IMG/VR virus record: IMGVR_UViG_3300020421_000087
Location: 1-31,882 of that record
Length of the DNA stretch: 31,882 nt
Source: a virus
Direction: 5' to 3' (one strand)
Made by a program: the position numbers and the translations under genes. Below the pieces are notes generated by a model. That model made no database searches and was not told where the DNA came from. It saw only the letters and a program-made list of their open reading frames with translations. Positions 619 to 28,897 of the stretch are shown here, piece by piece. Within the stretch, counting starts at the first letter, position 1. The number at the start of each line of letters is the position of its first letter.

Positions 619-921
619 ATGATGCAAACTCATTCAATCACCCTAGGAATGAATATCCCTAATGCGGGTAAAGTCACCAACCAAATGTGGATCGACTTCT
701 TAAACAGTAAGGTCCTTGCTGCTCTAGACTATGCAACTATCACCGACTCAATCGGCATATACAAAGGCACCCTAGAGAAAAGCAAAACAATTTCAGTTAC
801 CACGGATGACACCGCTGCAGTGGATGCACTTCTAGAAGTGGGTGATGCATACAAGAAAGCATTTAATCAGGATGCTATAATGTATAGTGTCACCGCTGTC
901 CCCATACTACAATTTACATGA
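619..921 (+). CDS. DUF3574-like small protein
   Basis: This encodes 100 residues. The central and C-terminal pattern resembles DUF3574 proteins: a Val-Thr turn followed by W..F at about 19-28, a short strand with G near 46-51, then ESK-like 'EKSKTISV' at 53-60, and the closing 'AYKKAFNQDAIMYS' at 77-90, which fits the family's Y...F.Q.sV ending. The role of DUF3574 is unknown. The start could be either of two adjacent ATGs (619 or 622). It overlaps the next small frame by ATGA at 918-921. The family call comes from pattern memory, not a search. Confidence 0.6.
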   Translation: MMQTHSITLGMNIPNAGKVTNQMWIDFLNSKVLAALDYATITDSIGIYKGTLEKSKTISVTTDDTAAVDALLEVGDAYKKAFNQDAIMYSVTAVPILQFT

Positions 922-3117: not shown

Positions 3118-3329
3118 TGGATACTCTAACCACGGGGTTATATAGGGATATAGTATATACTGAGTATATGCTAGAGCATGACCTAACATATGACGAGATG
3201 ATGAGCAAAGTTCATGTTGATGAGATGCTCAAGCGTGTGGCACACATGGAGTGGCAGGATGAGCAGAGGTCAGCATGGATGGCAGGAGAGAAACCACAGT
3301 TTGTAGTTCCTGACGACTGCCCATTCTAG
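3117..3329 (+). CDS. Small Met-rich acidic protein, unknown function
   Basis: This encodes 70 residues. The same frame is open back to an ATG at 3003, but that part lies wholly over the preceding gene; the TAATG overlap at 3115-3119 points to 3117 as the start. The protein is largely helical, with repeated Met, Glu and Asp (YDEMMSKVHVDEMLKRVAHM), and ends VVPDDCPF. No domain is recognised. Confidence 0.55.
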   Translation: MDTLTTGLYRDIVYTEYMLEHDLTYDEMMSKVHVDEMLKRVAHMEWQDEQRSAWMAGEKPQFVVPDDCPF

Positions 3330-3602
3330 GCAGCGTGGCAAACCTGATGTAGGTAGCACTGAAACAGAGTGATAGTAATCCCTCGTCTAAATGTAAGACC
3401 ACATGAACTGGATCGCATAAGACTTTCAAGGTGAGCGATGCACTGCTCTTTAAGTCGAACTTAAGCAGCGATCCAGTCCCTAACCCAGTTCGCGGGCGGG
3501 GGGGCGTTTTAAAGGAGTCCCATAGAGCTAATCTATAAAGTCTTGCATCCGCGAGCGAGATATAAAATATAAAATTTTTTCAAAATATTTTCTGAGGTAA
3601 AA
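3330..3602 (+). other. Non-coding region with a structured segment
   Basis: No convincing gene is seen in these 273 bases. Perfect 10-bp complements ACTGGATCGC (3407-3416) and GCGATCCAGT (3468-3477) enclose a second hairpin, in which CTGC and TTAAGT pair across a CGA loop with ACTTAA and GCAG, leaving a three-base bulge. The 71-base unit looks like a folded RNA but does not have tRNA arm lengths. It is followed by a G-rich run near 3491-3505 and then A/T-rich promoter DNA. Confidence 0.5.
3561..3597 (+). promoter_or_regulatory. Tandem -10-like boxes and RBS for the PPTase gene
   Basis: TATAAAAT occurs at 3561-3568 and again at 3568-3575, followed by an A/T-rich leader and GAGG (3594-3597), five bases before the ATG at 3603. 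No strong -35 is seen. Confidence 0.45.
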
Positions 3603-4094
3603 ATGCCCCCTTTGATTTTTCACAACGATGACACACATGTATATCTGTTCAGTAATATAGATGAACCTAACCATCCCTCTGGTGGCATGATAAGATGTGC
3701 CATGAGAGAATTTCTGAGTAGTCGGGTATTAGACTGTAAGGAACCTATAACGATGCATTGGAATAAATCGGACAGTCATATCTTTAGCGTCGTTGCTGTC
3801 TCTACAAAGCAAGTCGGTATTGATATCGAATATATGAAAGAACGTCCCTATGAGAAGATCTCCAAGAGATACTTCCACGAGTGGGAACACACTGATGACA
3901 AGGATATCTTCTACGATCTCTGGACTAGGAAAGAAGCATTCACTAAGCATAAGAAAGGAAAGATAGCAGAGAACATGAGAGAGTTAATGTATACACCAAC
4001 AAAAGGTGGTGGAAGACGTATAGAGAAGTATACTGACAGGTTTACACAGTTAATGAACTTACCTCCCAACACTATGGGATACCTTTATCAATAA
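3603..4094 (+). CDS. 4'-phosphopantetheinyl transferase, Sfp/HetI type
   Basis: This enzyme family moves the 4'-phosphopantetheine arm from coenzyme A to a serine of acyl, aryl or peptidyl carrier proteins. In the 163 residues the family signatures appear in order: an N-terminal SDSH at 56-59 in place of the usual N-x-SH(S); VGIDIE at 71-76, giving the Mg-binding Asp74 and Glu76; an R-Y-F segment at 89-91; and W-T-R-K-E-A-F-T-K at 107-115, giving catalytic Glu111 and Lys115 in the W..KEA..K motif. It is shorter than Sfp (about 224 residues), mainly at the N-terminus. The protein is basic and cytosolic. GAGG at 3594-3597 supports the start. No carrier protein is seen nearby, so the target is probably a host protein; that is inference. 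Confidence 0.82.
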   Translation: MPPLIFHNDDTHVYLFSNIDEPNHPSGGMIRCAMREFLSSRVLDCKEPITMHWNKSDSHIFSVVAVSTKQVGIDIEYMKERPYEKISKRYFHEWEHTDDKDIFYDLWTRKEAFTKHKKGKIAENMRELMYTPTKGGGRRIEKYTDRFTQLMNLPPNTMGYLYQ

Positions 4095-4103
4095 CTGTGA
4101 ACG

Positions 4104-4142
4104 TTGACAAATGTTAGGAATTGGTGATATAATAAATATCAC
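4104..4142 (+). promoter_or_regulatory. Consensus sigma-70 promoter with -10 inside an inverted repeat
   Basis: TTGACA (4104-4109), an 18-base spacer and TATAAT (4128-4133) are both perfect hexamers. The -10 lies in a perfect inverted repeat, GTGATAT (4124-4130) and ATATCAC (4136-4142). Confidence 0.8.
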
Positions 4143-4167: not shown

Positions 4168-4365
4168 ATGATCCGCCTCGACGAACGGTTCTCCACTTAC
4201 CTAAATGGAACCAAAACATTTCTTATAGACAATGTAAGACAAAAAGTAAGAGCGTATGGGTATAGGTGTGATGGTTCTAGTATCATTGGTTACTATGTCA
4301 TCACGGATGATTGGAGATTGAACTATGATAATAATGAACAATTAGTATTCAAGGAGGAAATTTAA
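4168..4365 (+). CDS. Small phage protein, unknown function
   Basis: This encodes 65 residues, with alternating charged and aromatic positions (YYVITDDWRLNYDNNEQLVF) that suggest a small beta fold. It is driven by the consensus promoter at 4104-4133 (leader about 28 bases). The stop overlaps the next gene's start by one base, and AAGGAGG within its end serves the next gene. No family is recognised. Confidence 0.65.
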   Translation: MIRLDERFSTYLNGTKTFLIDNVRQKVRAYGYRCDGSSIIGYYVITDDWRLNYDNNEQLVFKEEI

Positions 4366-5286: not shown

Positions 5287-5454
5287 ATGGGAAAGGCAAA
5301 AAGAATTATAGATGGTAAAAGGAATGCAAATGTTCCTGTAGATATGTCAGATAAGTTCTATGATGAAGGAAATGAGTATTGTAGATACCTTATTACTGAT
5401 CCTCGTAGTGATAGACTAGAGCGAAAACGTAAACCTTTCGAGAAACGAGTATAA
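5287..5454 (+). CDS. Small basic protein between PAAR and gp25
   Basis: This encodes 55 residues beginning MGKAKRIIDGKRNANVPVDM. The frame extends upstream to an ATG at 5224 inside the PAAR gene, but AGGAGG (5276-5281), five bases before 5287, fixes the start there. It is rich in Arg and Lys (RLERKRKPFEKR near the end). It probably belongs to the same late operon. Its stop TAA is the centre of the TATAAATA promoter for gp25. Function unknown; a minor virion protein is possible. Confidence 0.65.
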   Translation: MGKAKRIIDGKRNANVPVDMSDKFYDEGNEYCRYLITDPRSDRLERKRKPFEKRV

Positions 5455-7730: not shown

Positions 7731-10700
7731 ATGACAAATAGTTCTTGGAGAGTTGGGTCGTGGACGACACCTACCACAACGGTTACACAACCGCCTGTGC
7801 CATCGGAAGTCAGTCCCGAATCTAGATCCAAAATATCAACACATATAAGAGGACAATTTCCGTCGTTTATACGGGAAGAGTATCCTACGTTCATTGATTT
7901 TGTCAAGGAATACTATAAATCGCAAGAATTAAAAGGATATTGCATTGATATAATTCAAAACTGGTCAGATTATTATAATATTGACAATTATGGCGATCTA
8001 GTTACGACTACAAAGTTGATTTCTGCAACTTCTGCAGATTCTACAACGATTGACGTTGAATCTACACGTGATTTTCCGTCAGAAGGACTTTTATTGATAG
8101 ATGATGAGATAATTTACTACCAAAGCAAGGGTTCAACACTATTTCAAGACTGTGGGCGTGGATTTAACGCTGTAAAGGCAGTTGGATTGAAGGCAGACTA
8201 CAAATTTGAGTTTACAACAGCTGCAACACACACTCAAGGCACAGAAGTTGTCAACTTAAACAACATTTTCCCAATTTACATGCTTGGGAAGTTTAAGGAA
8301 CAGTTCCTAAACACATTTCCAAAGAATTTTGCACCTAACGTAACAGAAAGCACTGTAATAAAACGTATTAAGGACTTCTACTCGTCAAAAGGAACAAGTA
8401 GATCATTCCAGTTTGTATTAAGAGCATTATTTGGCGTAGACTCAGAAGTATCATACCCTAGAGAGAGAATATTCAAACCTAGTGATGCATTTTACACTTC
8501 TAGAGAAATTATTCGTGCAGTTCCGTTAAAAGGCAACCCAATAGAACTTGTAGGCGAAGTATTATATCAAGATGCAGATCCAAACGACCCAAATATCGGA
8601 TTTGCAAGAATTTACGTAAAAGGCGTCGTAGAAGTGTTTACTTCTACTGGAACAATCTATGAAATTGACGTAGATACCAATAATTCAGTAGGAACCTTCG
8701 TAACTCCGTATAAAACGATGTTAGCGGAGGATTTAGGTGCTAATTTAACAGATACTACTGTTACAGTCGATTCTACACTAGGGTGGCCTGAAACAAATGG
8801 TAAGTTTAGGATAAAAGACGAAATAATCAGTTATACCGATAAAACAGTTACACAATTCCTTGGATGTAGTCGTGCTAGAGACAATACAGTCAATATTGCA
8901 CATGATGCGGGTCAAGACGTTATTGCTGCGTTTAAAATCTACGGTTCTTCCAATGTAGACAGTTCTGAGATACAATTAAAGATATTTGGTGGCACTAGAG
9001 GTGTAATACTGAATACTGGTGGTAGATACTACTTACCAGACTCAAAAGTCACTACTCCCCTTGCACCTGGCTTTGATAGCATTGATCCTATATGGGATAG
9101 TTTTGTATACAACGTAAGACGTGCTCTCAGAGGCGTCTCAGCGACCCTAGGAACGCCATTAGCGAATGGATCGGTAAGATGCACGGTAGTGACGAAAGAG
9201 AAGCATAGATTGGTCAGAGATGACTCTGTTAGAATCTTAAATGCTCCAGAAGACATTTACAACAATAGTCACACTGTTGTAGGTATTGTTGACGACTTTA
9301 CATTCGAGTTTATCTTCTCATCATCTCCTGCACAAGGTATATCTGGTATTGAGTTCTTTATTGCTAGAGAATTTGCATTTGGTAAGAGTGATGACACATC
9401 TATCAATATAGCGATCAAAGATACTACAGGTGACGTTCAAAACACATATCAGTCAGATTCTAATGCAATAGTAGCAAGCACAGGAATTCCTACACATAAG
9501 ATAGGACCTTTTGCTGCAAATGACCTAGATCCTGGCAATCAGAGATATCTAAAACGTATTCCTCTTAAACCAAGCATAAAATCACAAAAAACATCAACTC
9601 CTGTAGGTCAAGTTGGTATTGGTGCAAATGGTGTCCCACTATTCTCATTTAAGTCTAATAATACGAAAAAGTTTGGTGGTGTAAAAAGTATTGAGAAAAT
9701 AATTGGTGGATCTGGATATGACATCACAAACCCACCTACTGTAGAATTTGAACCTGAGTATAAGTTAGATACAACGTATGCATCTGGTCTTAGAGTAACA
9801 TATAACGGAAACAGATACAGATCACTCAATCCTGGCAAATCATCACCTACAGTCTATCCTATCCACACATTAGGAGTAGTAACAGTAGGAACTATTGATT
9901 GGGAGTATGAGGGAGCAAGTGCAGAAGCATCCGTAATTATTACAGGTTCCGTAACCTCTATCAACGTAACGAGTGGAGGAAGCGGATATACTACGCAACC
10001 TATCGTATCAATCGTCGGTGGTGGTGCAACTAGCGGAAACCAAGCGTTTGCTACCGCACAAATTACGGAAGGTTCCGTAACTGGTATTACTATTGTGAAT
10101 GGTGGTGCGGGATATACGAGCGTTCCTACGGTATCCATATCAGGAGGAGGCGGAAGTGGTGCAACTGCTAGTGCAGTTTGTCGAGGTCCTGTAGATACTA
10201 TTACTATTGATAATGCAGGATCGCAGTATACATACGAACCAACTATCAATCTGATAAGTGGAAGCGGAGCTGTTGCTTATCCATCAATACTAAACGGTAA
10301 GATAGAGAGTATAATTGTTACATTCGGTGGTAGTGGATACTTCGGTCCTCCAGACGTTATTATTACAGGAGACGGAGTTGGTGCGACTGCATTTGCTACT
10401 GTAGATCTATCTTCTAATATTGTTACTGGTATTACTGTATCAAGTAAGGGTGTTGGTTATACAGCGGGTTCTACTAGGATTGATATTGTATATCCTGGCT
10501 CAGGTGCACGTTTCCAGACTAGACTTACAGAACTATCTGTCAATGAAGCAGCAACAGGTAATGAACTAGGCAGTAATACATTTGTATCACCCAAGACTAC
10601 AGACGTATACGGTGGTGCTACATTCCAAGGTGAGAACTATCTAATCTTCAATGGCGAATATGGTTACCTCTATAATCCTAAGCAACTAAGATTCTTACTT

Positions 10701-13700
10701 AAGGATAGTATTGGTTTAGATAATAACGGAGCTCTGCAGGAATTACCTCCTACAGTGCACTCACCTATTATTGGTTGGGCGTATGACGGACATCCTATCT
10801 ACGGACCTTACGGATATGAAGATCCTGAGAATACCGCACCTTTCAACTCATATAAACGTATTAGAAGTAGTTACAGAGTAAAGACATCAAGAGCGTCTAT
10901 TCTAAGCGGTCTCAGTGACCCTCTAGGCACATATCTTGAGGATTATGAATATGTGGAAGGTCTTGGTGATTTAGACCGTTACAATGGCAGATACTGCGTA
11001 ACTCCAGAATATCCAAATGGAGTGTATGCTTACTTTACAACTATTACAGGAACCACTGGTTATCCCGCATTCCCATACTTTGTAGGATCAGAGTTTTACG
11101 GTGAAGCGGATGAAGTAAACTGGAATGGTAATGGATTGCAGAGAAACTTTAATGAAGACGCAATACGTTACAGAGCACCATTTGTAGGTGTTGATAATAT
11201 TACAGCAAAGAGAAAGCAATTAGACGATAAGATTGACTTCTTCCTTGCAATGGAAGATAGCACTACTCTCATAGTCATGGAGACTGGTGAGACATTAACA
11301 TATATTGAAGATGGTATCGGATACTTTAGTTACTATCCTTTCGTTAGAGGTGGATCTGCGGATTCTCTAATTGTATCTTCTACTAATAAGTTTTCATCAG
11401 CTGGTGTAAATCAATATCTTGTAGAAGGTGGTGGTAAAGAATATAAGGTCAACGATAGGTTACAGTTTGATAATACTGGAACTGGTGGAGATGGTGTAAG
11501 TGCAATCGTATCTCAAATTGAAGGAACTACTGTTAATTCAGTAGCACGTTTTGTTGGAACTTACAATGATCAGTTTGTTGCTATAGTAACCACTGCAAAT
11601 AGTCATCTACTACAAGTTGGTGATAGAGTCGATATAAAGGTAACTGACAACGCTGCTACAAGAACATTAACAAGTAAGGTTATTAATAGCAATTATCATT
11701 TCAAATACTTTGATTTACAAAGTATGAAATTACTTGATGCTTGGGCGGGAACTACTGCATATGTTGAAGGAGATTTAGTTCATGTAGCAAATAGAGTATA
11801 CGTTGCAGCTAGCACTGGAACTTCTGGAGCATCTTCACCTACACATACTACTGGAACTGCAGGAGACGGAGTTTTAGATTGGACTTACCTTAGAGTAAGA
11901 ACAGATGGTAACTTATTCCAAGATGGTTGGTCATCTATTACTGGTGGTTCTGGTTATACTAACGGAACATACATCAATGTCCCTATAACAACCAATGGTG
12001 ATGGATTATTAGGAAAGGCAACTATAGTTGTTGGTAGTGGTGCTGTTCAAGCAGTTACAATTACAGAATTTGGATATGGTTATGATATCGGTGATACAAT
12101 ATCTGCAGATGATATTAATATTGGTAATGGTGGTGGATCTGGGTTTACTATCACACTAACTCAAGTGCAACGAGAAGTTCAGTGTCACGTTAGTGGTATT
12201 AACTCACATCAACTTAGTGCAGGAGACATTGTTAATATCTCAGGTGTCTCACCTACGTCTTACAATAAGACAAACTATGTTGTAGTAAGATCAGAGACTG
12301 CTAGGAAGTTTACAGTCAAGAGAAACTTTGCAGCAACAAGTGCAGCAAATGTTACAACAGGTAATAGTGGTAATCCTGCAGACATTTACGTCAAAGAACC
12401 AAACTTATCAGTTATAAATGGACACTCATACATCTTTGATACATCTGATGCAAGTAATAGTGGACAAGTTCTATCATTTACACTTGATCCTGCAAATACA
12501 GACATCTTTACTTACAAAAACATTATTGAAGAGTCTAGAGATCCAATCACCAACGAACAGAACTCTCTAACAGTCAAAATAGTAGATTTGCCTGGCATTT
12601 TCTATTACCATGACATTAAACATACAATTACAGCACCAAATACCTTTACAGTTGTAGTTCAGAACAAAACAGCTGATCATCCTCTGTTTGGTCAAGGATC
12701 TGGTAAAGGATATTGGATGACTGGTGACAAATATGGAAGTCTTGCTCAGTCACCATCACTTACTATGTCTCGTGGTGTAACATATACATTCTTACAAAAC
12801 GATTCATCAAATACTACACATGCTATCTACTTCTCAGAGAGTGAGGATGCATATGGTGGCACAAACAGATATGAGAAAGGAGTTGTTTATAGAATTAACG
12901 GTGATGTAGTTTCTTGGGACGATTATAACGCTAACTTCGGAACTGCAGTTTCTAGAAGTGTAGAAATTACCCCTACAGTAGATTCTCCAAACAATTTACA
13001 CTACGTTTGTCAAAACCATGCTTATATGGGTAACGTAATCTCTATTAAGAGTGATGTTTCTAATAGTAGGTATTTCTCAATAATCAATGACCCGATATTA
13101 GGCGATCAGACAGTTATCGCAGTAAGTAGCACCACTGAGTTCTCCTACAGTATGGCAGTTGCACCCGAAGCTGGTTATGGAGTAGGTGTATCATATGATA
13201 CAAGTTCAATATACCCAACAGGCGGTGTTGCAACTATAACAATTGGAGATAGTGGTAGAAATTATCAATCATTACCTAAATTAAGTGGTTCTTCTAGATC
13301 TGGGTCAGGTGCTACTGCTGTAGCGACTATTTCTGGTGGATTATCAAATGTATCAATATCAAATAACGGATCTGGTTATAATCAAGCTGATTTGCCTACT
13401 TGTGTTGTAACAATGCCTGATTTTGTAGATTTGACGCTAGAAAATATATTAGGCAACTTTATTAAAGATGAAATCATTATTGGAAAAGAAGTTCAAGATA
13501 ATAGCACTGCTAGAGGAAAGGTTATATCATGGAACCCAATTACATCAGTATTAAGAATACAACCTCTACGTAATACAAGAGTTGGTGCAGGACAGAAAGG
13601 ATATATCATGTTCAATGCGGGTAAATCATATAGCATCAATCCATCACAGATTGACGCAGTAGGATATGCAGATCAATTCTTCTTTGGAGCACATGATGCA

Positions 13701-16700
13701 AAAACTGGAGATCCAGTCAAATATGTCTCAGCACAGACTAACCCAGTTAGTAATCTTACAGTAGGACAAACATACTACATTATCAACATAGGTGATTCAG
13801 ATCGTGTGAAGTTAGCAGAGACACCACAGCTAGCAGAAGTAGGCACTGCGATCACTGTAACCAATTCTGGAACTGGCACACAGGAGTTTAAGATTCTCTC
13901 AAGAGTTTATACAGGTGGTAACTCAGTAGCAATTATTAATACAATATCAGGAACGCAATCTACAGTTGCTGCAGCGGTTTCTGGTGCGGGTCAAGTATCA
14001 TCAGTAACAGTTACACAGGCAGGAACAAATTATAGAAATGCACCAACAGTATTATTTGACGATCCATATTACGGTATAATCGCAACTGTCTCAATTAAGA
14101 CTCAATCTGCAACGAACTATGGAGCAAGTCAAACATACACAGGTATACAACAAAAGTCTATAGCAGGAACCAGTGCGACTGGTGCTGAATTTACGGTGGC
14201 CACGAACGGTGCAGGAACTGTTGAGACAGTAACTGTAACAAATGGTGGAACTGCATATAACATAGCAGACGATATTACAATATCTGGAGCAGACTTAGGT
14301 GGAAGTGATGGTGCTGATGATTTAGTCATAGAACCAGTTACAATGACATTCAATGATGTCGTCCAAACTAAGACATTACTAGATGCAGCAATAGACACTA
14401 TAACTGTAACGAACTCTGGATCTGGTTATCTATCTGCACCTACTATCAGTGCACAAGGTGGTAATGGAATCAACTCTTCATTAAATGCATTGATATCAAA
14501 TCAAGGTGTATCTCTTATTAATATTGAAGCTGGTGGACAACAATATCAAAGTCCTCCAATAATCAATATTGAGCAGAAATCTGGAACTGGTGCATCAATA
14601 CTTCTTAAGTCATCAGATATGGGTGAGATATTGAAGATTGGTGGTGAGAACATTACATTTAACTACAGTCACGATAGAACACTAAAACCAAAGTTAAATA
14701 CAACCTATAATTTACAATTAGTCAGAACTCAAGTTATTGATTATCTTGAAGTTGTAAATGGTGGTGCTAATTTTGTATCACAACCAGAAATCATACTTGA
14801 TGGTGGTCAAGGTTCATTATTTGAGTTAGAACCAATAATACAGAACGAGATTATACAGGCAGTAGAGGTTAATAATTCTGGTAGAGGATTTACATCTGCA
14901 CCTACAGTTAAGGCAAAAGTCAGTCATACATTTGTAGCACTTAACTCAAGTAGCACAATAAACTTCCCATATAACGCTAAGATTCCATCAGGAACCAAAG
15001 TTACTCTAGTAGAGTCATCTGGAACTCTTCCAGAACCATTAGTAGTAGGAACAACATACTTTGCTGTAGCAGCAACTACTGCAAATGGATTAGCAACTAA
15101 TCAGATCAAATTAGCAACATCTCTTGCTAATGCAAACACTGAGACTACAATTTCATTTACAAGTCCACCTTTAGGCGATCCACTTACAGGTCAAACTTAT
15201 TTCCTTCTTGAAACTACAGATTTAGGTGACAATATCATTGCATACATGAAACCAGCTACTTTCTCTATTGGAGAGAGAATATATCAGGGTGCATCTAATA
15301 CATCATTTACTGCATTTGGATTTATTAAGAATTGGGATGCATCAGGTCGTGTTGTTAGTGTTGAACTTATAGAAGGTGACTTTGTAGTTGGCGAACCTGT
15401 ATTTGGTGAAGAGTCTGGTGCGTTTGGTCAGATACATGCATTTGATAGAGCAGATGCTGAATTTATCGTATCACCAATTAGCACATCATCTGCAAACTGG
15501 GAGAAGACAACTGGATTCTTAGATCTTAACGAACAACGTGTATATGACAGTAATAGATTCCAAGAATTCTCATATAACATATCATCTTCAATTAATATTA
15601 ATAGTTGGAAGAATCCACTTAAGTTTGCAGCACACCCTGCAGGATTTAAGGTAGTTGGAACACAAGTATTACTATCAAGTGTCAAGAAAGAGTTTAGACC
15701 AAGATCAACTTCTAATCTCAACCCAAGTAGTCAATTTGATTGGTGGTCACCAAATACAAATACTCTTGGCACAACATTTAATGGAACAACCTTCATAACA
15801 CCAAAACCATCTGCTAAGAATACTGGTAAATTATCTAAGATTAGTAACTTTGCATTATCCAAACCAGATTACACTGCATTAGTTCCTACAGAGGTTTCTA
15901 TCTACGGAAAACAGTTATTAGACGTTCAGAAGATCTTATCTTGTATCTCATATAAGATTGATGATATTAGCGACAGGACATTAACATTTGACGGATCTAG
16001 CACTACTATTGTAGATAGTGTCAATGATAGAATTACAATTACTAATCATGGTCTTCTAACAGGACAACAAGTAACTTACTTCTCTGGTGGAGATAGATTC
16101 TTAGATGCTAGAGATTTAATCGTCAATAACATTGATTATATTGTAGAAGAGACAATTGGTTTCTTAAATGCTCTATATCCATCACTAACATACGATCAAG
16201 CAAAATGTGCTAGAGATACTAGACTTGTAATCGCAGCATGGACAAATGATCTTAAGTATGGTGGTAACTACTTTAGTGTGGATGCTGCACAACAATATAC
16301 TGACGGGACAGGTATTCAACACGTAGCTGGTGAAGAGGCAGAAACAATATATGCATTTAATAAAGCAAGAGACTTATGTTTATTAGCAGTAACTAACGAT
16401 CTTCCAGTAGGAACATACACAGACATAGTTCCACAAACAGATCTAAGTATTACTAATGATTCTGGTGGTTGTGCTGATGTCAAGAGTGCTATCACAATCT
16501 TTGCAGGAATAGTTACAGGTGCTATCGCAGATCCTACTGCTGCACTACCTACTATCAATGCAGGGAATTATCCAAACAACAGAGCTGGCACACCTATTGG
16601 TGGACTTACAAATGCTAGTAAGTATTTTGTTAAAGTTGTAGATGCAAATACAATAGAATTAGCATTAACAGACGGTGCAACCTCAATAGATCTAACATCA

Positions 16701-19700
16701 CAAGGATCAGGTGTAGGACATACACTAAGATGCTTTATAGACGGTATCAATGACTCATTTGCAGTAAGAGTTGATGGTATTGACATAGGAACTAAGATCG
16801 GTAAGACTGCAGCAACATCACAATTATTATTAGCGATAAATGGATTGATTGCAAACCCTGCTACTTACACATTTGCAAATAACGTTGTAACATTTGTTAC
16901 TCCACCATTATCAGGCAGTAAAGTCCTCGCAATGTATTTTGATCGTTCTGATTACACTAGTTCATTTGTATTAGATCAGATTGGAGATGAGATAAAAACA
17001 TTTGGTGCAATCACAGGTGGTAGTGGGTATAGCGATGGCGTATACACTGCAGTGCCACTTAAGAATAGATTAGGTTCTGGTGTTGGTGCAACTGCTGATA
17101 TTACAGTTACTGGTGGTAAAGTAAGTGGTGTCGTTCTCAATGCAGCTGGTAATGGTTATACAGACAATGATGTATTAGCAATATCTGATCCTCGTGTTGG
17201 AGAACAATTAGTCAAACACTTCATTCCATCAACCGCAACATATGCTCCTGCATCTGGTGAAATGGTATTGACCATAGGTTCTGGACATGGTTTATCAGCA
17301 CCTAGCACACATACACCTACAGGTGCGACATACGATCCTAATACAGGTCTGATGGTGGTAACTATTAACGATCATGGATTTGTAAATGGAGACTTTGTTA
17401 AGTTTGCAGATGGTGCGATTAAATTTAGTTGCACATATTCTGGTGGTGGTAATGACGATTATCCTCGTTCTACAGATTATGCATCAGACAGATGGTTAGA
17501 AGCATTTGATTGCACTACAAATACATTTACAGTTCAAGTTCTTGATACTATTCCTTCTACAAACACTGATCCACATACATTCGTATCTGCAGTAACAAAC
17601 AGCGTTAAGAAGGCAGTATCTACAGTAAGGATTGCTAACGAGTCATTACAGTTCAGTTGTAACTATGGTGGCGGTGGAACTGCATCATATCCACGTCCTA
17701 CAGATCCTATTGGAACTCAAGGCAAGATGAAAGATGTTCCTGTTGAAGCAGTGGCAACCACAACAATTACTGTTAACGCATTGAATGGAACAGCACCTAC
17801 AAACACTGACGCACATACATGGGTAGGACTCTCAGCATACCAGTTCCAACCAACAGATATTGCTTACACACCATCTACAGGTGAGATGGTTCTTACATTG
17901 AATGGTCATCCATTAATTAAAGGTGACAGAATATTCTTTGCTAATAATTCACTAACATTTACATGTGGTTTAGATAATAACCAAACACAGCACACATATC
18001 CTAGAGTTGGAGATCCATCAGAAGGTGCATGGCATACTATTGACGCTGTAACTGCAAATACATTTACTGTCAACGTAGGTGTATCATCTGATACATCAAC
18101 ACATACATTTGTGAGTGCCACTTCTACAGCTGTCACAAGGGCAGTTGTCAGTTACGGTGTTTACAAATACAGCAAAGTTGCAGACGCAGGAAACTTACTT
18201 AGACTTAATCAAAACTTTATTGCTACAACTGCATACGGTAGAATGCAAGCAGCAAACCCATCTTTCTCTGCTGTCTACAAAACCAAATGTGTTCGTGATA
18301 CAAACTTACTAATAGATGCAGTAGCAGACAACGTAGAGTTTGGTGGAAACGATGCAACATACGATGCTGCTAACTTCTATGTTGGAACAGTTCATCTAGG
18401 TGGAGAAGAAGATGAGTCTGTAGAAGTATTCAATCATGCTAGAGATATTTGTCGTCAGGTCATGCGTAACCTAACAGTTACTACAAATGGTGATACTGTT
18501 GGCACACAAATAAAAGATAATACTATTAGTAATGATTCTGGTAGCACATCATACTCCGAGGCATGCTGTGTTGATACTGCATCAACAATATCTACATTGT
18601 GGGCGATTGTAACTCAGGCAGTAGGAACTACAGCGGGTGGTAGTGGAAACTTGAACGGTATTACTAGAACAGCATCAACACAACCATTCTTCCAAGTTGA
18701 TGTCGGTAGCGTAACCTTTGATGGACAAGATGCAGTATTTACTACATTGTCTGGTGGATCTACACAGATATTACCACCAAGTGATAACTTCTTGATATTC
18801 TTGAATAGCACATTACAAATCAAAGGAACAACTGATGCATACACATATACAGGTAGCACACTTACATTTACAGAACCACCTCTAGCTGGTATGGACTTCT
18901 TTGGATTCTACTTTGGTAAATTGACTCAATTAGATCCTATCGAACCATTCTTTGATAGTAAGAAGAAAACATTTACTATGAAAGAGAATACTGAACCATT
19001 CTCTCTAGAAAGTGACAACGCTGCAGTTCAAGCACAAAATAACTTGATTATATTCCTCAATGGTGTGTATCAGGAACCTGGCGTAGCATATAACCTAACA
19101 GGATCTATCATAGAGTTTAGTGAGGCACCTAGAGCAGGATCTGATTGTATCCTATTCATCTATACAGGTAGTGCAGCAGATATTCTAGTAAGTAACACAT
19201 ACAACGCTATTGATCCAGAAGACAGAGTTAAGATTTCTAGTGAAGGTTCTGATCGTCTTGTCGCAGCTGTCTCAAGTTCGACTACTATTGATAGTTACGA
19301 ATATACAGGTTTGAAACCAACTGTTGCTGAGTTTTCTGCAACTGTAACTGGAGGACAGGTAACACAAGTCAATATTACTAATCAGGGTTCTAACTATGAG
19401 GTTCCACCTATTCTAATATTCCAAGGTGGTGGTGGAGAAGGTGCGTCTGCTGAGACTACAATTGAGACTGGAAGTGGTAGAGTTTTATCAGTCATAAATC
19501 TAAAGGGTGGTGCAGGATATACTAGTGCTCCTACTGTATTAGTTGTTCATCCTCTAGATCTAGAAAGAAAACAAAGAAATAGAATCATATCTAATTCATT
19601 GTCATTAGGAACATCTTACCTATCATCTACATTATCACAAGCGGGAACTACTATTAACTTGAAGAATGTATACTTTAATTCTTCTGAGAAGAATGGTTTC

Positions 19701-20102
19701 CCTGACGAAGGTGAAGTATTGATACCATTCTACAATACATCTGTTACTCCACCAGTATGGACATGTGAAAGAATATTGTATGGATCTAAGGATGTAAGTG
19801 GTAATACACTAACAGTTGCAACAGGTGGTAGAGGTGCCGAAGGAACAACTGCTGCAGAGCATCCAGTCCTTACAGGAACTTATACTTCTAGCGGACTTTC
19901 ATGCACAGTCACTACCTCTAGTAATCATAATTTAGTTACTGGTCAAAGATTCTATCTAGAATTTACTAGTGGCACTGGATTTGACGGAACATATATTGTT
20001 ACCGTAACAGGAGCAACAACATTTACAGTTGAATTCCCATTCTCACGAACAACAAGTGGAAACGTTAGTCTCCTCCCAGAAGTTCGTCTAAGATCATTAT
20101 AA
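7731..20102 (+). CDS. Giant virion structural protein, YHYH-type, 4123 residues
   Basis: A single open frame of 12.4 kb between gp6 and gp8, the place of T4 gp7. The N-terminus (about 30-240: FIREEYPTFIDFVKEYY, then FKEQFLNTFP, then IKDFYSSKGTSRSF) resembles a baseplate-attachment domain common in marine T4-like phages. Then come G-S-G-Y beta repeats (about 20 in all), two W/TAY..G modules (679-729, 1335-1390), a YHYH domain (about 985-1105, GWAYDGHPIYGPYGY near 1015), a cupredoxin-like domain (about 1630-1775; His1697, Cys1760, His1763, Met1766), a helical Cys-containing module (2793-2939) repeated at 3487-3637, and tandem TGxMVLT modules (3167-3472). No signal peptide is seen. It is probably a wedge-attached adhesin or peripheral baseplate protein. 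Equivalence to gp7 is inferred from position. Confidence 0.85.
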   Translation: MTNSSWRVGSWTTPTTTVTQPPVPSEVSPESRSKISTHIRGQFPSFIREEYPTFIDFVKEYYKSQELKGYCIDIIQNWSDYYNIDNYGDLVTTTKLISATSADSTTIDVESTRDFPSEGLLLIDDEIIYYQSKGSTLFQDCGRGFNAVKAVGLKADYKFEFTTAATHTQGTEVVNLNNIFPIYMLGKFKEQFLNTFPKNFAPNVTESTVIKRIKDFYSSKGTSRSFQFVLRALFGVDSEVSYPRERIFKPSDAFYTSREIIRAVPLKGNPIELVGEVLYQDADPNDPNIGFARIYVKGVVEVFTSTGTIYEIDVDTNNSVGTFVTPYKTMLAEDLGANLTDTTVTVDSTLGWPETNGKFRIKDEIISYTDKTVTQFLGCSRARDNTVNIAHDAGQDVIAAFKIYGSSNVDSSEIQLKIFGGTRGVILNTGGRYYLPDSKVTTPLAPGFDSIDPIWDSFVYNVRRALRGVSATLGTPLANGSVRCTVVTKEKHRLVRDDSVRILNAPEDIYNNSHTVVGIVDDFTFEFIFSSSPAQGISGIEFFIAREFAFGKSDDTSINIAIKDTTGDVQNTYQSDSNAIVASTGIPTHKIGPFAANDLDPGNQRYLKRIPLKPSIKSQKTSTPVGQVGIGANGVPLFSFKSNNTKKFGGVKSIEKIIGGSGYDITNPPTVEFEPEYKLDTTYASGLRVTYNGNRYRSLNPGKSSPTVYPIHTLGVVTVGTIDWEYEGASAEASVIITGSVTSINVTSGGSGYTTQPIVSIVGGGATSGNQAFATAQITEGSVTGITIVNGGAGYTSVPTVSISGGGGSGATASAVCRGPVDTITIDNAGSQYTYEPTINLISGSGAVAYPSILNGKIESIIVTFGGSGYFGPPDVIITGDGVGATAFATVDLSSNIVTGITVSSKGVGYTAGSTRIDIVYPGSGARFQTRLTELSVNEAATGNELGSNTFVSPKTTDVYGGATFQGENYLIFNGEYGYLYNPKQLRFLLKDSIGLDNNGALQELPPTVHSPIIGWAYDGHPIYGPYGYEDPENTAPFNSYKRIRSSYRVKTSRASILSGLSDPLGTYLEDYEYVEGLGDLDRYNGRYCVTPEYPNGVYAYFTTITGTTGYPAFPYFVGSEFYGEADEVNWNGNGLQRNFNEDAIRYRAPFVGVDNITAKRKQLDDKIDFFLAMEDSTTLIVMETGETLTYIEDGIGYFSYYPFVRGGSADSLIVSSTNKFSSAGVNQYLVEGGGKEYKVNDRLQFDNTGTGGDGVSAIVSQIEGTTVNSVARFVGTYNDQFVAIVTTANSHLLQVGDRVDIKVTDNAATRTLTSKVINSNYHFKYFDLQSMKLLDAWAGTTAYVEGDLVHVANRVYVAASTGTSGASSPTHTTGTAGDGVLDWTYLRVRTDGNLFQDGWSSITGGSGYTNGTYINVPITTNGDGLLGKATIVVGSGAVQAVTITEFGYGYDIGDTISADDINIGNGGGSGFTITLTQVQREVQCHVSGINSHQLSAGDIVNISGVSPTSYNKTNYVVVRSETARKFTVKRNFAATSAANVTTGNSGNPADIYVKEPNLSVINGHSYIFDTSDASNSGQVLSFTLDPANTDIFTYKNIIEESRDPITNEQNSLTVKIVDLPGIFYYHDIKHTITAPNTFTVVVQNKTADHPLFGQGSGKGYWMTGDKYGSLAQSPSLTMSRGVTYTFLQNDSSNTTHAIYFSESEDAYGGTNRYEKGVVYRINGDVVSWDDYNANFGTAVSRSVEITPTVDSPNNLHYVCQNHAYMGNVISIKSDVSNSRYFSIINDPILGDQTVIAVSSTTEFSYSMAVAPEAGYGVGVSYDTSSIYPTGGVATITIGDSGRNYQSLPKLSGSSRSGSGATAVATISGGLSNVSISNNGSGYNQADLPTCVVTMPDFVDLTLENILGNFIKDEIIIGKEVQDNSTARGKVISWNPITSVLRIQPLRNTRVGAGQKGYIMFNAGKSYSINPSQIDAVGYADQFFFGAHDAKTGDPVKYVSAQTNPVSNLTVGQTYYIINIGDSDRVKLAETPQLAEVGTAITVTNSGTGTQEFKILSRVYTGGNSVAIINTISGTQSTVAAAVSGAGQVSSVTVTQAGTNYRNAPTVLFDDPYYGIIATVSIKTQSATNYGASQTYTGIQQKSIAGTSATGAEFTVATNGAGTVETVTVTNGGTAYNIADDITISGADLGGSDGADDLVIEPVTMTFNDVVQTKTLLDAAIDTITVTNSGSGYLSAPTISAQGGNGINSSLNALISNQGVSLINIEAGGQQYQSPPIINIEQKSGTGASILLKSSDMGEILKIGGENITFNYSHDRTLKPKLNTTYNLQLVRTQVIDYLEVVNGGANFVSQPEIILDGGQGSLFELEPIIQNEIIQAVEVNNSGRGFTSAPTVKAKVSHTFVALNSSSTINFPYNAKIPSGTKVTLVESSGTLPEPLVVGTTYFAVAATTANGLATNQIKLATSLANANTETTISFTSPPLGDPLTGQTYFLLETTDLGDNIIAYMKPATFSIGERIYQGASNTSFTAFGFIKNWDASGRVVSVELIEGDFVVGEPVFGEESGAFGQIHAFDRADAEFIVSPISTSSANWEKTTGFLDLNEQRVYDSNRFQEFSYNISSSININSWKNPLKFAAHPAGFKVVGTQVLLSSVKKEFRPRSTSNLNPSSQFDWWSPNTNTLGTTFNGTTFITPKPSAKNTGKLSKISNFALSKPDYTALVPTEVSIYGKQLLDVQKILSCISYKIDDISDRTLTFDGSSTTIVDSVNDRITITNHGLLTGQQVTYFSGGDRFLDARDLIVNNIDYIVEETIGFLNALYPSLTYDQAKCARDTRLVIAAWTNDLKYGGNYFSVDAAQQYTDGTGIQHVAGEEAETIYAFNKARDLCLLAVTNDLPVGTYTDIVPQTDLSITNDSGGCADVKSAITIFAGIVTGAIADPTAALPTINAGNYPNNRAGTPIGGLTNASKYFVKVVDANTIELALTDGATSIDLTSQGSGVGHTLRCFIDGINDSFAVRVDGIDIGTKIGKTAATSQLLLAINGLIANPATYTFANNVVTFVTPPLSGSKVLAMYFDRSDYTSSFVLDQIGDEIKTFGAITGGSGYSDGVYTAVPLKNRLGSGVGATADITVTGGKVSGVVLNAAGNGYTDNDVLAISDPRVGEQLVKHFIPSTATYAPASGEMVLTIGSGHGLSAPSTHTPTGATYDPNTGLMVVTINDHGFVNGDFVKFADGAIKFSCTYSGGGNDDYPRSTDYASDRWLEAFDCTTNTFTVQVLDTIPSTNTDPHTFVSAVTNSVKKAVSTVRIANESLQFSCNYGGGGTASYPRPTDPIGTQGKMKDVPVEAVATTTITVNALNGTAPTNTDAHTWVGLSAYQFQPTDIAYTPSTGEMVLTLNGHPLIKGDRIFFANNSLTFTCGLDNNQTQHTYPRVGDPSEGAWHTIDAVTANTFTVNVGVSSDTSTHTFVSATSTAVTRAVVSYGVYKYSKVADAGNLLRLNQNFIATTAYGRMQAANPSFSAVYKTKCVRDTNLLIDAVADNVEFGGNDATYDAANFYVGTVHLGGEEDESVEVFNHARDICRQVMRNLTVTTNGDTVGTQIKDNTISNDSGSTSYSEACCVDTASTISTLWAIVTQAVGTTAGGSGNLNGITRTASTQPFFQVDVGSVTFDGQDAVFTTLSGGSTQILPPSDNFLIFLNSTLQIKGTTDAYTYTGSTLTFTEPPLAGMDFFGFYFGKLTQLDPIEPFFDSKKKTFTMKENTEPFSLESDNAAVQAQNNLIIFLNGVYQEPGVAYNLTGSIIEFSEAPRAGSDCILFIYTGSAADILVSNTYNAIDPEDRVKISSEGSDRLVAAVSSSTTIDSYEYTGLKPTVAEFSATVTGGQVTQVNITNQGSNYEVPPILIFQGGGGEGASAETTIETGSGRVLSVINLKGGAGYTSAPTVLVVHPLDLERKQRNRIISNSLSLGTSYLSSTLSQAGTTINLKNVYFNSSEKNGFPDEGEVLIPFYNTSVTPPVWTCERILYGSKDVSGNTLTVATGGRGAEGTTAAEHPVLTGTYTSSGLSCTVTTSSNHNLVTGQRFYLEFTSGTGFDGTYIVTVTGATTFTVEFPFSRTTSGNVSLLPEVRLRSL
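16093..16545 (+). repeat. Helical Cys module, copy 1, inside the giant gene
   Basis: Residues about 2788-2939 hold the pattern P.......K-C-A-R-D-T-R-L-V-I-A-A, then YGGN, AA..Y, GEEAETIYAFNKARDLC and a SITNDSGGCADVKSAI ending. The same order of elements occurs again at 18188-18640, so this is an internal duplication at protein level, diverged in DNA. Confidence 0.7.
17229..18145 (+). repeat. Tandem TGxMVLT beta modules inside the giant gene
   Basis: Residues about 3167-3472 contain three units starting Y-x-P-x-T/S-G-x-M-V-x-T (ATYAPASGEMVLTI, ATYDPNTGLMVVTI, IAYTPSTGEMVLTL) and three units with F-x-C ... YPR ... T-x-T-V-x-V ... THTFV. The units are about 85-95 residues long and clearly related. 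Confidence 0.65.
18188..18640 (+). repeat. Helical Cys module, copy 2, inside the giant gene
   Basis: Residues about 3487-3637 repeat the module at 16093-16545: NFIATTAYGRM, then KCVRDTNLLIDAVADN, FGGN, GGEEDESVEVFNHARDIC, ISNDSGSTSYSEACCVDT and a closing IVTQAV helix (IVTGAI in copy 1). The CxRDT and ARDxC cysteines are conserved between the copies. Confidence 0.7.
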
Positions 20103-28558: not shown

Positions 28559-28897
28559 ATGGCAAGTGCTGTATCCAACTTAATAATATATCAGGGTTCT
28601 GACTTTATCATTGACTTTACAGTCGAAAATGATAACGGAACGGATTTTGACCTGACTGGATATTCGGCAGCGTGTTTGATTAAAAAGCACTACACAAGTA
28701 GCACTTCACAAACAGTAACTGCTGCAGTTTTATCTCCTGCTACAAGCGGAAGAGTTCAACTATCTTTGACTAATTCACAGACCGCTGCTATGAAGAGTGG
28801 ACGGTTTGTATACGACGTTGTAATAACTTCTGGATCTGGCATTAAGTCCAGAGTGTTAGAAGGATCGGTAAGCGTTCTTGAGGGAGTAACACTTTAA
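28559..28897 (+). CDS. Ig-like/BppU-N-like small structural protein
   Basis: This encodes 112 residues, predicted all-beta. The pattern IYQGSDFIIDFTVEND followed by DFDLTGYSAACLIKK (about 10-46) resembles the N-terminal domain of baseplate proteins such as BppU and similar phage Ig-like folds (GDt..i.f ... iDLTG). The C-terminus (GRFVYDVVITSGSG and then VLEGSVSVLEGVTL) fits the closing strands. It is likely a fiber or neck accessory protein. The start codon overlaps a 14-bp palindrome. It abuts the next gene with no gap. Confidence 0.65.
   Translation: MASAVSNLIIYQGSDFIIDFTVENDNGTDFDLTGYSAACLIKKHYTSSTSQTVTAAVLSPATSGRVQLSLTNSQTAAMKSGRFVYDVVITSGSGIKSRVLEGSVSVLEGVTL

Follow-up and report, generated by a model that had tools for sequence, protein, structure and literature searches.

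The open reading frame (ORF) considered here encodes a 4'-phosphopantetheinyl transferase (PPTase), and lies in a window that comprises the whole 31,882-base IMG/VR record (Table 1). By sequence comparison, the window represents part of the genome of a T4-like Prochlorococcus phage resembling Eurybiavirus. Its gp25, gp6, gp7, and gp8 region, together with nearly all of the flanking small genes, follows the same order in P-HM1, P-HM2, and MED4-213, all named species of the genus Eurybiavirus, and its gp6 is 88-90% identical to that of these three phages. The PPTase gene is located directly upstream of the baseplate genes PAAR-gp25-gp6-gp7. Occupying the place of the baseplate wedge initiator gp7 is one uninterrupted reading frame of 4,123 aa (7731-20102, +), similar in size to gp7 of P-HM1 and P-HM2. 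Elsewhere, a 100-aa protein encoded at 619-921 (+) matches DUF3574 (E 1.8e-7) and, weakly, an S-adenosylmethionine lyase family (E 1e-3); it is 82-87% identical in the three Eurybiavirus genomes, and its product is possibly SAM-lyase-like, going by these matches. A search of the window for Rfam families and tRNAs returned none.

Table 1. Coordinates of the PPTase gene, its motifs, and related features in other phages and contigs
Feature	Sequence	Position	Strand	Details
PPTase ORF	window	3603..4094	+	163 aa, ATG start
GAGG, probable ribosome-binding site	window	3593..3596	+	read from sequence, ~7-10 nt upstream of the PPTase ORF
P2 motif WNKSD, residues 53-57	window	3759..3773	+	HMMER alignment to Sfp 1qr0
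P3 motif GIDIE, residues 72-76 (metal-ligand position Asp74, and Glu76)	window	3816..3830	+	conservation and Sfp alignment
W..KEAFTK motif, residues 107-115 (Glu111, Lys115)	window	3921..3947	+	conservation in viral set
PPTase gene	P-HM1	41410-41868		
Acyl carrier protein (ACP) gene	P-HM1	18565-19041		
ACP gene	P-HM2	18917-19411		
The two ORFs at the cpeT-adjacent place	L093; L013	14071-14640; 14369-14866		

The GAGG ahead of the ATG agrees with the original prediction, which had given the gene a ribosome-binding site. The promoter of its own that had also been claimed was not recovered, as no sigma-70-like site is found upstream on the plus strand (3300-3603), and the TATAAATA motif that precedes gp25 and gp8 is absent upstream of the PPTase gene. 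The sole perfect promoter-like site, of sigma-70 type (TTGACA-18 nt-TATAAT, with a TG before the second hexamer), is found at 4104-4133 (+), just past the PPTase stop codon and ahead of an ORF at 4168-4365. Sites carrying TATAAATA or GATAAATA, similar to the T4-type late promoter, occur at 5450, 20098, and 28514, that is, 29-45 nt upstream of gp25 (5485), gp8 (20127), and an ORF at 28559. The main text of a P-HM2 infection transcriptome study makes no mention of the PPTase and ACP genes (PMC5082946).

A small single-chain PPTase of the Sfp-like fold

By family, fold, and conservation, the ORF is a real PPTase, and enzymatic transfer is predicted for its product. The original claim of a phage-encoded PPTase with an Sfp-like fold, for which a profile search without a PPTase hit had been named as a refutation, is upheld by a match to the Pfam family ACPS (PF01648) of 33.7 bits against a cut-off of 25 (E 4e-8), the single match to this family in the whole record, and additionally by the fold matches and the conserved catalytic residues. 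The ORF also matches phrog_23098 (E 7e-53), a family without a named function. IMG/VR holds 57 viral relatives of this protein, and each of 29 diverse viral members matches PF01648 individually (E <= 0.001). The AlphaFold (AF2) model has a pLDDT of 88.7 and a pTM of 0.83, and the top 33 matches in a PDB fold search with it are PPTases throughout, led by 4mrt, the complex of Sfp with CoA and a carrier (E 2.6e-5). The TM-scores reach only moderate values (0.4-0.6), in line with a chain much smaller than the solved PPTases. When a nine-sequence viral profile was compared with the PDB sequence set, Sfp alone was matched. Pairwise dN/dS values among viral copies range from 0.10 to 0.28 for pairs with estimable dS, those with dS above 1 being rough, and by this measure the gene is under purifying selection.

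The nearest named relatives are PHM2_076, PHM1_077, and CPMG_00044, which belong to the groups T4-GC500 and phrog_23098. The PPTases of P-HM1, P-HM2, and MED4-213 are 52-54% identical to that of the window over the full length and share with it the flanking genes and the conserved motifs, including WNKSD; the window protein is longer (163 aa versus 152 aa), with a longer loop before the last strand. Judged by full-length similarity and gene order, it is orthologous to PHM1_077 and PHM2_076. Its 52-54% identity to the Eurybiavirus orthologues compares with 74-90% for most genes a few kb away. This divergence despite purifying selection may reflect either fast divergence or allele replacement.

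Two of the sequence motifs initially proposed, GIDIE and W..KEAFTK, are indeed found in the 163-residue protein. The third, SDSH, proved to be out of register, the correct P2 motif being WNKSD. In a gap-free profile alignment that continues to GIDIE, the phage HWNKSD pairs with HFNISH of Sfp (1qr0), so the universal P2 His (His90 in Sfp, His111 in the human enzyme) corresponds to Asp57, and the His of SDSH, His59, varies freely across the viral family. Among the 29 diverse viral sequences, W53, S56, G72, D74, I75, E76, W107, K110, E111, A112, and K115 are invariant. D74, E111, and K115 align to Sfp (D107, E151, and K155) or to the equivalents in all 51 cellular PPTases. From these aligned invariant residues and the Sfp fold match, it is likely that Asp74, Glu76, Glu111, and Lys115 meet in one site.

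The best solved-structure match is Sfp from Bacillus subtilis (1qr0 and 4mrt; profile E 1.7e-7), which has the GIDIE and W..KE motifs and the single chain in common with the window PPTase, but is larger (~228 residues). Group II (Sfp-type) enzymes are generally single chains of ~220-280 aa with two pseudo-symmetric halves; the window protein has an Sfp-like fold and a P2 motif ahead of GIDIE, but only 163 aa. With AcpS, the group I holo-ACP synthase formed by a homotrimer of ~120 aa chains, the viral PPTase shares the superfamily, the predicted reaction, and the presumed substrate, a fatty acid synthesis (FAS)-type ACP. Unlike AcpS, the viral chain has the WNKSD motif ahead of GIDIE, and the structures it matches by fold belong to the single-chain enzymes of group II.

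The label "HetI-type" given at first to this protein could not be retained, since the NCBIfam HetI model scores 29.4 bits against a cut-off of 370 and the viral clade falls outside the PPTases of Prochlorococcus and Synechococcus. HetI and the other cyanobacterial host PPTases belong to the same Pfam superfamily as the viral ones and have the same catalytic residues, but they are ~220-260 aa long and keep the P2 His that the viral proteins lack. A 65-sequence tree places the viral PPTases together in a single group (100/98), outside the Prochlorococcus/Synechococcus clade. Their deeper placement with other cyanobacterial PPTases (89/80) is unsure, as the tree is built on ~120 columns, with cellular sequences solely from genomes of the cyanobacterial phylum and a long viral stem, so that no donor can be named.

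An acyl carrier protein in complete relatives

The original prediction stated that no carrier protein gene is present in the window, and PF00550 does find none there, which reflects where the window stops. Each complete relative has one PF00550 match above the cut-off, namely PHM1_027 in P-HM1, PHM2_029 in P-HM2, and CPMG_00087 in MED4-213, the first two of which are annotated as "acyl carrier protein ACP". This fatty-acid-type ACP is encoded ~22-24 kb upstream of the PPTase in all three genomes. The ACP gene adjoins the gp5 hub and tail-fibre genes. As the start of the window corresponds to ~38,000 in P-HM1 coordinates, an equivalently placed ACP gene would be located ~19 kb beyond it.

The phage ACP has 23 relatives in IMG/VR. 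All 22 examined retain the DSL serine, along with an N-terminal helix region of 21 residues and a tail at the C terminus, which reads QTxVPHPxSPxMSKKP in most of them. One member, at 75.1 bits, exceeds the cut-off of 71 set for an NCBIfam subfamily of bacterial acyl carrier proteins. The model of the phage ACP consists of a helical ACP core, in which Ser59 starts the helix 59-73, and a low-confidence tail; the core is 51-59% identical to the Prochlorococcus ACP.

As for partners of this ACP, genes for fatty acid, polyketide, or peptide synthesis are not named in the stretches of the P-HM1 annotation examined, and Pfam searches with ten selected P-HM1/P-HM2 proteins (the ACP plus nine others, hypothetical or with weak annotation) returned no such synthesis family besides the ACP itself. 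In P-HM2, a 2OG-Fe(II)-oxygenase-like gene (Pfam E 1.1e-5, just below the cut-off) adjoins cpeT, between it and the ACP gene; in the divergent contig G022, its place is occupied by a 189-aa ORF of unknown family.

The ACP/PPTase pairing has already been published: an acyl carrier protein (T4-GC457) and its synthetase (T4-GC500) were described as common to P-HM1 and P-HM2 and as not found in the other cyanophages compared (Sullivan et al. 2010, PMC3037559). The window contributes a further PPTase, more diverged than the published ones. In a narrow literature search, no function was found to be given for the pair. Within the phage collection, full-length PPTase matches and long ACP matches (at least 80% coverage) are restricted to the same three phages, while gp6 matches 2,270 phage records, including 373 from Synechococcus and 61 from "Cyanophage". 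This shared restriction is consistent with a functional pair, but it concerns a single genus and does not amount to independent evidence. Among marine contigs, the pairing test in IMG/VR is weak, since almost all of them end before the second locus. None of the 22 larger PPTase contigs searched carries an ACP, most of them stopping short of its region; G022, whose PPTase is ~41% identical to that of the window, spans to cpeT and has no ACP beside it. The reverse search of 14 ACP contigs found a PPTase in the P-HM1 record alone.

Taken as a whole, the protein is most likely (roughly 70%) a small single-chain Sfp-like PPTase with which a Eurybiavirus-like Prochlorococcus phage loads its own FAS-type ACP. 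CoA or a CoA-like donor would bind to the enzyme, with D74 and E111 as the ligands of Mg. If the roles known from the human enzyme (PMC2148441) carry over, E111 would activate the ACP serine and K115 would assist the cleavage of the pyrophosphate. The 4'-phosphopantetheine arm of CoA would thus be moved to the conserved DSL serine of the phage ACP, yielding holo-ACP. This proposal assumes that the phage of the window also encodes an ACP elsewhere in its genome, and that this ACP is the main substrate. The holo-ACP might then carry acyl groups made by the fatty acid synthesis of the host and put them to use for the phage, for instance by diverting or storing them or by acylating a phage product.

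The original prediction had instead argued, from the lack of a carrier gene, for control of host lipid or secondary metabolism, an argument weakened by the ACPs that complete relatives carry outside the region covered by the window. The enzyme could still act mainly on the host carrier, the fatty acid ACP of Prochlorococcus, maintaining its holo form at a time when host proteins are no longer replaced. Given the similarity of the phage and host ACP cores, an enzyme that serves either may also accept its counterpart, and genes acting on host metabolism are common in lytic cyanophages. This reading is nevertheless rather unlikely, given that the phage has an ACP of its own, that a host PPTase is found in some Prochlorococcus genomes, and that the ACP and PPTase genes are restricted to the same phages.

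Two further ideas were discarded. A link to the neighboring "putative RTX toxin" of P-HM1 and P-HM2, through HlyC-like acylation by acyl-ACP, was dropped because the toxin has no Pfam hit and no window orthologue is listed. A role in hypermodified bases, by comparison with phage SP-15, for which an ACP reductase is listed (PMC5977210), finds no support in the present data.

An apparently altered 3'-phosphate grip and its possible meaning

The P2 His is present in 51 of 51 aligned cyanobacterial PPTases. In the 57 IMG/VR copies of the viral enzyme, its position holds Asp in 53 and Asn in two, with two not covering it: the Ser-His pair by which group II is recognized at P2 thus keeps its Ser and has lost its His in 55/55 copies covering the site. 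In the human PPTase, the His side chain contacts the 3'-phosphate of CoA, while the alpha-phosphate is bound by Ser110 and by the main chain of this His; in Sfp, the 3'-phosphate is additionally contacted by Lys28 and Lys31 (PMC2148441). The alpha-phosphate Ser is retained in the window protein (Ser56, beside Asp57). The viral N terminus falls ~20 residues short of the cellular enzymes and shows no alignment to their basic segment; the part that holds Lys28 and Lys31 in Sfp seems to be missing.

The 3'-phosphate grip therefore looks remodelled, either lost or rebuilt, in the viral family, and the CoA affinity or donor preference of the enzyme probably differs from that of Sfp. With the catalytic residues kept and the clamp apparently altered, these enzymes may have a low affinity for CoA or be able to use dephospho-CoA. 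In the human enzyme, the R47A and R86A changes, which remove two other 3'-phosphate contacts, raised kcat, and product release was suggested by the authors as rate-limiting for the wild type (PMC2148441), so that rapid catalysis at low affinity is no less plausible than a switch of donor. A more specific scenario, in which the viral clade uses 3'-dephospho-CoA, alone or as well as CoA, and the phage thereby charges its own ACP while the CoA pool of the infected cell changes, is speculative and has low odds. The family-wide change of the P2 His looks unreported in the open-access papers that were checked.

The same changes could be read as those of a protein related to PPTases that has given up phosphopantetheine transfer to carriers, and acts as a binding protein or moves another nucleotide-linked group. 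The Asp or Asn found throughout in place of the 3'-phosphate His, and the apparent loss of the N-terminal clamp region, would fit such a protein. However, D74, E76, E111, K115, and Ser56 are invariant, the dN/dS values are low, and the human variants indicate that loss of grip need not abolish catalysis, making this option improbable. Least probable is a target in the virion or another phage protein instead of a PF00550-type carrier, for which the PPTase gene upstream of the baseplate genes, the ACP beside the gp5 hub genes, and the lack of an ACP in the usual place in G022 could be cited, but these neighborhoods reflect shared gene order, are only suggestive, and do not prove function.

With loading of the phage ACP as the preferred reading, the loss of the P2 His across the family poses the question of how the donor is bound and whether CoA is discriminated from dephospho-CoA. 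The 57 PPTase and 23 ACP relatives in marine viral contigs indicate that the pair extends beyond the three cultured phages. If a lytic phage does encode both an ACP and its activating enzyme, it would have a private acyl-carrier pathway inside the ocean's most abundant photosynthetic cell.
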